From the NCBI GenBank assembly GCA_964036295.1, contig OZ038466.1:21194597-21258596 (forward strand): DNA of 64,000 nucleotides, written 5' to 3'. A program made the translations under genes and the position numbers. Positions 17,767 to 26,700 of this stretch are shown piece after piece; positions within the stretch are counted from its first letter, which is position 1, and the number at the start of each line of letters is the position of its first letter. The stretch comes from Plumapathes pennacea. Lineage: Eukaryota > Cnidaria > Anthozoa > Antipatharia > Myriopathidae. The notes beneath the pieces are model-generated. The model was not told the origin of the DNA, did no database searches, and worked only from the letters and a program-made list of their open reading frames with translations.

Positions 17767-20700
17767 ATGAACTCAAAGAAGAGTAACGGGCATCGCCAAG
17801 ATCAGGCCGAACAGATGTTGATTTCTTATGCTGGGGCGGCGATGGAGTCAGAAGATTCAGAACACGATTTCGACCACGTTCAGCCGCTCGATCTACCGCC
17901 TACAAAACTGAGGCGTCCAAAATCGAGGTATTTGAAAGTTATTGTACGTAAAGCAGATAGATCATATTGTTTTTTGTGGTATATATATTGTATCGATAGG
18001 ACATATAATTACACTAAATCGGGGGTTCAATTTATATGTTTGGTCTTAAGGATAGGCAAGATTTGTATTTTATATAACCTGAATTCGATGTTTCTTGTCT
18101 AGTATCAAACTTTGAATGTACAAAACATGATTTCCGTTCAACAGCAACGGCTGAGCCAATTTATAGACTGATGTACACATCACAAAGTTTTATTTGACGA
18201 GCACGATCACACACCCAAACTTGTTGGAATTTTTATGGTTGCGTGCAGTGGTGCAAGCCAGTATGATCAGGGTAAAACTGTTTGTGTATATTAAAACAGC
18301 TAGATCCATATTGCTTTCTATGGCAAATATAATCTATTGATCGGACAAGCAGTTACCGGCACAATCTGTCATATTTTTCATTTTTATAGTTAATTAATAA
18401 AATTCAACTTAATTTGGTCACCAAGGAAAACTTCGATGGGCTCAAATAATAATTTGCATTCCCATTCACTGTTCTGCTTATATTGATCGATCTATTTTGA
18501 CCAGGTGGTGGCGATAGAGCCCTATACAGCATGTGAACCTGCTCTATAAACTGTTTTGAATGCCCCCCATAAAGTAGTGAGGGTCAATTAAGCCCTCCCC
18601 CAAAATATGCCCACTGAAAAGGTCCTTGGAGCAAATATAGGGCTCATTTTTGGAGTTTTATGGTAGTTTGATTATATTGTTGAAGTAAGAAATATAATTT
18701 TTACAATAACATGTCAGTTTCTCGCTTTGTGATTGGCTAATTTTCATTATCAATAAGAGGACAGACACATAAAATCGAGTGCTGACGACAGTGATTTGGA
18801 CGAAGAAGGTGAATTCAGCTTCAATTTTACCTCAGTTCTTGCAAAAGCGACATTCGGCATTTGAAGTAGAAAACCAGAAGTGTTCAGAGGCGAATTTCCT
18901 TGAGCTTTGTCTTGAAATTGTTGAGAAAACCACAGCAGAAAAGCGTCTAGTTTCATTTTTTTCCAACTTCTTTGACAAAATTTTATTTTGCACGCACGAA
19001 ATGCTCACGTCAAACTGTCACTTTTTGGCCAATGAAATGTCTTGAATTTCAACCTCGACCAATTAGAAAGCGGGAAAAGTTGTTGACAACATTTCGGTCA
19101 AATCGAACAAAATCCAGTTTTCTTGTGTGTTTTCCCTGCGTCGTCGCTTGAGTTTTGTTATTGTAAAAAACAAATTGACGCCAGTTTTTTATGTGTCTGT
19201 CCTCTTATTGATCATGAAACGCATCATAACATTGTCAAAAAGTTAAATATAAAAAACTGACATAAAAAACTGACGTCAATTTGTTAAATGACTCACAGGG
19301 GACATGAGTTGCTAGTCATGTATAGTATGTCTTATCACAGTAGAATCCCACTGTCTCTAACTTGGTTATCTCAAAGTCCCCACTATCTTAAACAGAACTT
19401 GATTTACTTTAAAAACGAACTTGATAGAAATTCCCCCTTGATAGAACCCCGCTATCTGGAACTATTTCTCACATCCCTTGAGAGTTCGAGATAGCGAGGT
19501 TTTACTGTACTATTATTTATTAGCTGTAGACATTTTAGCATTAGTATTTTACCCCAAGGTGAAGAGCCACCTTGTGGACACTCTGTTAATAAAGCATTAT
19601 TATTATTATTATTATTATTATTATTATTATTATTATTATTATTATTATTATTATTATTATTATTATTATTATTATTATTATTATTATTATTATTATTATT
19701 ATTATTATTATTATTATTATTATTATTATTATTATTATTATTTGAATAAATGTACTTCCTACCCAACAGGAAACGCAATGGCCCTAAGATCAGGAATTGC
19801 TGTTCACTGTGGAATTTTTGTCAGATATTTTTTATTGTGTTCATACTGGCTTCCACAATCTGTGTGGTGTGGTTCACACTTATTTTGAAGAGTTCCATGG
19901 AATCTATGAAGACCAGGATTACACAATGTAAGTGAAACAGACAAAATTTCATAAATCTAACTGCTGTTGGGGAGGGAAGAGGAGTATTGTGGGAAGGTCC
20001 ATAAGTATTTTAATACACAAAAGTATTATTTCATTACAAAATTACTTTTCAAAATTATTTTTCCACACAAGAAATATGCATTGTACAAAACATATTATTC
20101 CAAAACAAAACAATTATTTCTTTTTAAAATAGTATTAGACTTATTCCTGTACAAATGTTATGCCAGTACACAAAATAATTTATTGCATTTCAGAAATATT
20201 TAATGCAATACATTATTCAAATACTCCAATGTAATAATTTATTTAAATACTCCAATGGAAGAATTATAATATTTTATTCAGTATAATAGTATTTATTCCA
20301 ATACAAAATTAATAATTATGACCAGCGCTACAATCAGATTGAATGAGCCTATATACAGTATAATTAGGGCAGGGCAATAATATATTGTGGCATATCAGTG
20401 GGTGATGGTAGTGCATTGTAAAAGGCTGATCCAGACCATACCTTTTAAAACTCACAATTTTGCGATTGATATTTCTCCATACCCAGCCATATACAGTATA
20501 TTTAACAGTAGATACATTTATGTATATTAGTAAATTTATTAGTATAGGTAATCGCATGATTTCAAGTGCAATTTGGAATAAATTAGCATGAGTACATTTT
20601 ACAAAGACCACAAAATTGCACGAGTGCCACGCGAGTGCAATTTGTGGTCTTTGAAAAATTTACGAGTGCTTATTTATTTCAAAATTGCACGAGAAATCAT

Positions 20701-23700: not shown

Positions 23701-26700
23701 AATTTACTGAGAAATAAATTGTAGAACCTTATACAGAATAATAATATTTACTTGAAAGGAATAAGGATATTCAAACTACTGTATGTTTTAATTTACTTGT
23801 ATATAGTTGGCCAGCCAATTAGCGAATAAAGTGTAATCATTCTAGTTTTTCTTTAACAACATTTTAGTGTATGCTTTCAACTATAGATAACATCAATTTC
23901 ATATGGAATTATCAAAGTAGTTATTTTGTACTGAAAGGAGAGTTCCTGGTGTTTGAAAGTGACAAGGGCTCAGATTCAAAGTATTTAATGAAATGTAAAA
24001 TAAGTCTTGCATATACATGTATCTGGGGTATAGCACTCATGCATTCATGTTCACCTTCATTCCTGACCTCATGATACATTATTACATAAATGTGATTCCA
24101 TCTCCCAACCACTGAAGAGGATTTACAGTATTTAGCAATACAGTGAGAATTCTACCATCTGAACATGCCAACAAATCTATGCTGTATTATGGATATTTAA
24201 TAATTAAATTATCTGTACTGATTGGCTGGCCTGGTGAGAAACTGAAAAATTAAGATTGATCATTGAGATCCTGAAGAGTTGAGGTTATCACATTTCTGTT
24301 GCAATTTATAATGAAATGAAATGAAAAATTAAGAGAAATGGTTTCCGAACAAAGAGACAAAATGCAGTCTTATGCAGATTATATCAGTATTATGCTAAAG
24401 AGATATTTATGAGAAATATCATGAGTATCTAATAATGATCCTCAGTCATTACCTATGTTCATATTTACTCAGAGAAAGGATCTGTCACCAGAAATGACAT
24501 GTCTATTACTTATCATGTTATGTAACTTTTTCAATATCCAAAGGCTAATGTGTACTGTAGGTCATATATATTTATTTTGAATAAAGTGTAGATTGGGATA
24601 TTCTAAGATATTCCTGTCTGCAAGTCTGTGTGTTTATATAAGAACTAAGTTTAGGAAATGAATTTTATTTTTCATATTTGATCAGTGGAAAAGAATTTAT
24701 AACAGGAACAAAAGTGTTTTGATCAGTATTCATGCAGCTGTTCTATTCATACGCCACACATACTGAGGTGCTATGTCATTCTAATGAGTGTTGTGCATGA
24801 CATTGTTGCACAGCTATACAATCACAGTCTTTGACATCAAAGAAAACTTAATAAGTTGGTGTGGCATTACTGAAAGCCACAGACAGAAATATTAGGTGGT
24901 AGTATGGTACAGCTACAAGAGACTGAACAAAAACTACTGCACAGACTCAATTTTTTATGGATCTAGAGGTGTCTTTTAAAATAATAATGAGAGTATCATG
25001 TTAGCACAGTTGCATTAATTTTCACTTTCTGTTTACATGACAACGATAAATTTATTGGCAAAAGAACACTCCCAAAAGTGCACCATTTTTAAAACACTCT
25101 TAGTTTCTTTTTCCATGTAAACAGTATGAATGGTTGTAACTATAAGTTATGAACCAAGTTGCTTTCCTTACCAAAATTAATACTTAAAAAAATAATTTAA
25201 AAATTGGTTAATTTTTGCATAACTGTTCTACTTTGAAATCTAAAAGGACTTGCTGTATTTTCCCAAGCTCCTCATACATATTCAAGAAGAAACAATAGTG
25301 ATAAATATGTTCCATGTCATAGTGTGTTGTGATAAAAGTGTGGTTTGTAAATCTGTACTGCTCCAATTCACTCCCTAGTATAGATGAAATTTAATGGGTT
25401 CTACTATACAATGATTCTGCATAACTACATAGATCTTATATTACACATGTCATTGTTTTCTTCTAGTGGAGTCTATGGATAGGAGCACTTCCAGAGAATA
25501 TGCCGAGCTTCAGAAGAATCTTGATGGTCAGATGGTCAAACTTCAGCACAATCAAGATGGTGTAGCTGCTTTGGATAAGCAGCATTTTCTGTCTGTTCTC
25601 GCACAGGTAATTAAAGATAAACATATCTGACAAGACATTATTTTACCATGTGAGAATGGGGGAGATATAATAATTTATTGTAGTTGAAAAGAAACAATAC
25701 AAAAGTGCACTAACCCTTTTTTCACAGGCATGAAGTATCAAATCGCACTGCATCATTCATTATAGTTTCTGGTCAGGAATGTTTATATTTTAAGCTCAGG
25801 ATAGGAAAATGTCATCTTATATATGTTACTTGCCCAGTATTTTAACATGGTTTGCACTTCTGCTTCCAGCTTGCACACCTAAATAGGACAGTAGATTACC
25901 TAAGTAAGAAGGTCAAGTCTCCGCAGAGTGCCACAAAGATCAATCAAGACATAGAATTGCTTAAAAATGGCATGGCAGACATAAACCAGGAGATCACCCA
26001 AGTGAAAGACCAAGTGGCTCAGTTGAAAACACTAGCCTCATCACAGCACACTGACATTACAGACCTAAAAGAAAGGATTTGGAATTTGACTGTGAGTTGC
26101 AGCTTTCATTGATGGCTAGTTGGTCCAATTAGAATAATAACTAATTTATTGTTATTATAATTTTAGTCTATTGTTACAAACTATAGCACTAGGTATCTTT
26201 TTTATGAACTTGGTTTTAACATTGCTAATAGTGTGTCTTATTTGTAACAGGCACAAGTGGTGCATTTGACAGGAAAACCTATGCCAGTCCCCCCGAAGGT
26301 TACCCCTACAGCTCCGCTGATTCTCAGAGTTCCCGTTCAATCTGACTTGTCTGGGAAAGAACAAAGTAACTCTGACATATTTAAGAACCTCACAGCAAGG
26401 TTTGCTTTGGTAAGTGAATTTCGACAAATTTTGTTCAAGCATAGTTCCATATGTGAGCATTTAATGACAATAGATGGTTTAAAACTAGTGAAAGTGGGAT
26501 TTATGCATTGATTTTGTGTGACTTTATTCTCTTTTATTCCCTTTAAAACAGGAAATAGGTCATGTTCGAGGATACATTACTTCCATCAACAGTTCTTTTG
26601 CAAGCAGGATTGACCATCTGGAGACTAAGATGGAAGGCTTGGTAAAGAGTATCAGGGACCATATGGTAAAGTATCTAAGGCTTAATTATTATCACTAACA

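Follow-up and report, generated by a model that had tools for sequence, protein, structure and literature searches.

The locus and its gene model

The window analysed here, a 64,000-nucleotide stretch of Plumapathes pennacea contig OZ038466.1, carries on its plus strand a gene modelled as two alternative exon pairs, A and B, with eight constant coding exons downstream of them, which run from 25467 to a TGA at 29057–29059. Both reading frames are open across all eight constant exons and end at this common stop, giving predicted proteins of 583 residues (A form) and 581 residues (B form). The coding exons are listed below with the evidence for each.

17767–17927, plus strand: exon A1, cytoplasmic tail including an acidic patch (splice site, frame, start context, coding score)
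19770–19927, plus strand: exon A2, membrane anchor preceded by the CC pair (splice sites, frame, BLASTP, hydrophobicity, block shuffles)
21946–22112, plus strand: exon B1, cytoplasmic tail including an acidic patch (splice site, frame, start context, coding score)
22191–22336, plus strand: exon B2, membrane anchor preceded by the CC pair (splice sites, frame, BLASTP, hydrophobicity, block shuffles)
25467–25606, plus strand: constant exon 1, joined by both cassettes (frame continuity)
25870–26091, plus strand: constant exon 2, strongest heptad pattern (gene model, heptad shuffles)
26251–26409, plus strand: constant exon 3 (gene model)
26552–26665, plus strand: constant exon 4 (gene model)
27024–27221, plus strand: constant exon 5 (gene model)
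27976–28183, plus strand: constant exon 6 (gene model)
28410–28706, plus strand: constant exon 7 (gene model)
28965–29059, plus strand: constant exon 8, last coding part with the stop (gene model)

A GT at 29063 is likely a donor within the 3′ UTR. Upstream of the gene lies an exon of a nuclear factor I (NFI) gene on the minus strand (7423–8184; Pfam NfI_DNAbd_pre-N, E 5.8e-25, and MH1, E 2.3e-9), and a candidate NFI first exon is a short minus-strand frame that begins near 17493. An inverted repeat at 12714–13016 consists of two 151-nt arms, 96% complementary and 1 nt apart. Downstream, the minus strand carries a retrotransposon frame with reverse transcriptase (31595–33616; Pfam RVT_1, E 2.3e-34) and Cytochrome P450-like exons between 36573 and 63314 that apparently form a tandem cluster, one frame having been tested (E 1.1e-8) and the rest assigned by eye. 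An 11-base tandem array of about 191 copies (56603–58742) is open in long minus-strand frames.

The sequence-only reading described two exon pairs with matching phases that can join one coiled-coil exon, and most of this anatomy holds. Each of the four cassette exons is followed by a GT donor and each second exon is preceded by an AG acceptor, the first exons (A1 161 nt, B1 167 nt) end in phase 2 and the complete pairs (A 319 nt, B 313 nt) in phase 1, and each pair joins 25467–25606 in frame, with Leu at the junction for A and Val for B. Cassette B is nested entirely within the intron of 5,539 bp that separates A2 from 25467. An in-frame stop lies upstream of each start ATG, at 17740 for A and 21916 for B, with no earlier in-frame ATG. 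As proposed, each cassette encodes a Cys pair followed by a single strong hydrophobic stretch (19-residue mean 2.72 in A and 3.01 in B), and the product is probably a single-pass membrane protein of type II, a topology predicted from sequence. The suggestion of an acidic N-terminus fits in part: an acidic patch is present in both tails, but the charge summed up to the hydrophobic peak is positive (net +3 in A, +8 in B). The clearest heptads of the constant part lie in exon 25870–26091 (0/1000 shuffles as good), one exon beyond that at 25467, where the coiled coil had been placed.

The reading frame forbids joint use of the two anchor exons: the A1-A2-B2 combination reaches a premature stop at residue 123, so that including both anchors breaks the frame, as in mutually exclusive exons. 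Full-length open frames result from A1-A2, from B1-B2 and from the hybrid A1-B2, a combination that the sequence-only reading left out. A premature stop also arises when either A1 or B1 joins 25467 directly, and retention of the intron after A2 leads to a stop after 108 residues. The B1-A2 combination is in frame, but the genomic order is wrong for it.

Relationships of the cassettes and of the protein

The two cassettes resemble each other at the protein level. BLASTP aligns the A and B proteins with 22 of 81 residues identical (E 4e-10) across tail and anchor. Plain shuffles reached the observed score in none of 5,000 trials for A2/B2 and in 13 of 5,000 for A1/B1. Under the stricter block shuffles, which hold the hydrophobic block in place, the A2/B2 score was reached in 9 of 20,000 trials (7 of 20,000 with A2 shuffled), and the score was reached in 6 of 20,000 when the whole of B was shuffled; the first exons alone are marginal (785/20,000). 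The second exons A2 and B2 are therefore very likely homologous as judged from these comparisons, and the first exons possibly so. A hand alignment anchored on the CC pair gives only 11/48 identities, which leaves the register of the pair uncertain. What the locus presents is two 5′ units able to join one constant exon in frame, their apparent homology coming mainly from the second exons.

No corresponding similarity was found in the DNA, either between the exons of A and B (461/500 and 220/500 shuffles as good) or between the 500-bp regions upstream of them (126/500), and the proposal of a duplicated promoter finds no support in the latter result. Any duplication that gave rise to A and B would have to be old. 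When the 1,636 frames in the window were searched with a profile built from A and B themselves, no third cassette was found, the next match having an E-value of 0.032. No second copy of the gene was found when A2, B2 and the initial portion of the constant region were searched against the coral's own 290-Mb, 24-contig genome and the best candidates were scored. One A2 match on another contig (E 0.48) was at chance level and was taken as chance after the match was read. One scan of viral contigs and one of bacterial and archaeal genomes turned up no relatives, as would be expected of a gene from an animal.

The protein resembles a sequence that we take to be human EFCAB14 (KIAA0494). When the first 382 of the 581 B residues were given, 35 of 138 positions were identical (E 5e-13), a result that serves as a lead. 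The alignment covers the CC pair, the anchor and the coiled coil and is ungapped through the anchor, and B may share the CC-anchor-coiled-coil layout of the N-terminal half of the human protein. Block shuffles reached the score with this query in 0/5,000 trials for B2 and 9/5,000 for A2, and on this basis B may be the older form. Human EFCAB14 ends in EF-hands, the feature for which its family is named, whereas none was found in B: Pfam matches to the full 581-residue protein, taken to E 1, included no EF-hand, and a six-frame scan, which a motif split by an intron would escape, found no EF-hand motif in the window. We therefore use the label EFCAB14-like and stop short of assigning the protein to the family. 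Other Pfam matches were weak, with none at cut-off among those listed for the full B form and for residues 1–227 of the A form (best 25 of 32), and a search of solved structures likewise gave weak matches, none convincing.

CpG pattern, splice signals and competing explanations

The CpG content of the region, expressed as the observed/expected ratio (o/e), alternates between rich and depleted segments.

17501–18250, unstranded: CpG-rich stretch at A1, possible promoter region (o/e 1.18–1.19 in 500-bp windows)
18698–19291, unstranded: repeat element within the A intron (numerous genome copies, most listed at 98%, best 40 of 2802 candidates scored)
19743–20534, unstranded: CpG-depleted stretch containing A2 (o/e 0.17 over 792 bp)
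20535–21020, unstranded: repeat-like stretch between A2 and B (piecewise match at one other genomic place among those scored, limits by eye)
21251–22750, unstranded: CpG-rich stretch at cassette B, possible promoter region (o/e 1.13–1.51 in 500-bp windows)

Exon A1 itself has an o/e of 1.28, and cassette B with its upstream 500 bp 1.36–1.46. The ratio is 0.24 across 22637–25466 and 0.21 across 25467–27221, and it rises back to 0.79 in 27976–29059. Both of the repeat stretches listed above, which lie between A and B, are rich in CpG (1.12 and 1.02), and the non-repeat DNA from A to B has an o/e of 0.28 over 1,543 bp. For comparison, the genome was sampled in half-overlapping windows from 20 10-kb stretches at round coordinates, 19 of them readable. 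Values as low as that around A2 (≤0.17) occur in 3.1% of 456 800-bp windows, and values as low as that of the non-repeat A-to-B DNA (≤0.28) in 9.2% of 228 1,500-bp windows. CpG richness at the A1 level (≥1.19) is common, being found in 14.7% of 741 500-bp windows; it is accordingly a weak sign of a promoter and could serve another one. A cnidarian survey gives gene-body CpG o/e below 0.75 in 41 of 76 species and lower methylation in repeats than in gene bodies (PMC8857923). The pattern at this locus is indirect evidence that fits germline transcription through A2 combined with an unmethylated internal promoter at B. Depletion need not stem from transcription of this gene, since a block at 10000–16000, between the NFI exon and cassette A, is also depleted (mostly 0.2–0.5) and no coding evidence was seen in it. 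This block might be a 5′ intron belonging to an NFI start further upstream that shares a divergent promoter with A. A scan for bacterial-type promoters gave scores at shuffle level and is of a type inapplicable to an animal gene.

Splice and coding signals are uneven across the cassettes. In the true frame A1 and B1 score 17.3 and 15.9 for coding, each the best of six frames. The anchor exons score negatively, −6.1 for A2, still the best of six, and −10.4 for B2, not the best of six; codon scores are unhelpful for them. By predicted pairing energy with U1, 8 of the gene's 11 other donors are stronger than that of A1 (−5.8), although no other phase-2 GT site listed for 17800–18102 matches it (next −4.2, at 17979), and the A2 donor, GTAAGT, is the weakest of the 12 (−4.9). 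Among 3,527 GT sites, 3.4% are at least as strong as the A1 donor and 8.4% at least as strong as the A2 donor. A pure (ATT)49 repeat at 19596–19742 ends 27 bases 5′ of exon A2, and variation in its length might influence splicing. AATAAA motifs at 18396, 19588, 19745 and 20577 could cause transcripts from A to end early.

These observations can be weighed against three other accounts of cassette A. It might supply only an alternative first exon, with transcripts either joining A1 to B2 or starting at B and A2 rarely or never used, so that the gene would make two tails and one anchor. The fully open A1-B2 frame and the weakness of the A2 donor are in keeping with this, as is the use of downstream cassettes from an upstream promoter that is described for sDscam (PMC4835542). 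An unused exon would not be expected, however, to combine an open frame, splice signals and matching phases with protein similarity to B2, and we consider this account unlikely. About equally improbable is that an old duplication left cassette A as a decaying relic, or that its open frames line up by chance, and that it is no longer expressed. The low identity between A and B in both the BLASTP and the CC-anchored alignment, the lack of DNA similarity, the weaker A donors and the poor codon score of A2 would all suit such a relic, but the start, frames, splice sites and hydrophobic anchor are intact despite great divergence, the A2/B2 score is seldom equalled in block shuffles, and CpG is depleted around A2. 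Less probable still is a separate short gene, or a truncated transcript, that ends before B and encodes a 108-residue anchored peptide lacking the coiled coil. Such a product would follow from retention of the intron after A2, with the AATAAA at 20577 lying downstream of that exon; against it, A2 ends in a GTAAGT donor whose phase fits the constant exon, and the related cassette B joins the constant exons.

The best-supported reading, based on the protein-level relationship, the matched phases and the CpG pattern, is that the protein can begin with either of two N-termini, each bringing its own anchor, and that B is nested in the A intron. Specifically, we give a probability of roughly two in three to a gene with two alternative 5′ cassettes, each providing its own start, cytoplasmic tail and membrane anchor for one constant EFCAB14-like coiled-coil ectodomain. 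Transcripts starting at A would splice A1-A2 to 25467 and skip the B exons, and those starting at B would splice B1-B2 to 25467; the two promoters, their transcription and the A2 junction (19927–25467) are predictions. The reading frame would make the anchors exclusive while allowing the A1-B2 hybrid. The ectodomain would stay constant, and the swap of tail and anchor would presumably change targeting, lipidation of the CC pair or the choice of partners.

Comparison with known systems and implications

Variable 5′ exons with their own promoters are joined to constant exons in UGT1A, and both UGT1A and the clustered protocadherins have large arrays of variable exons, in contrast to the two two-exon anchor cassettes here. 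The protocadherin clusters, named in work on sDscam (PMC4835542), follow the plan predicted for this locus, in which variable 5′ exons, with promoters of their own, are joined to constant exons. Another parallel is chelicerate sDscam itself, where every multi-exon unit in a tandem 5′ array has a promoter in front of it and is spliced to shared constant exons, and where cross-cassette mixtures occur (PMC4835542); the A1-B2 hybrid would likewise draw on a downstream cassette from the promoter before it. The sDscam cassettes encode N-terminal Ig domains, with the transmembrane part in the common region, and the system was established by RNA and reporter assays (PMC4835542), whereas the A/B arrangement is predicted from genomic sequence. 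DPP6 and DPP10 are, like the predicted protein, type II membrane proteins that take their cytoplasmic tails from alternative first exons, but their anchor lies in the common core, whereas here tail and anchor would be exchanged together in related two-exon units; some alternative KChIP N-termini also contain a transmembrane segment (PMC3973911). Among the matches listed in a literature search, the titles and abstract openings described no such arrangement in EFCAB14 or in a cnidarian. The arrangement would be of an already known kind, well supported in its anatomy and predicted in its expression.

A broader proposal, which we hold tentatively and at somewhat below even odds, is that A and B are ancient interchangeable tail-plus-anchor modules with their own promoters, that the internal promoter is kept unmethylated within a methylated gene body, and that the frame enforces a single anchor, so switching the site at which the ectodomain is displayed. 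If the two-cassette reading is true, promoter choice would exchange cytoplasmic tail and membrane anchor together under the same ectodomain, and the gene would offer a natural test of an internal promoter kept unmethylated in a methylated invertebrate gene body. It would also draw attention to a little-studied protein family.
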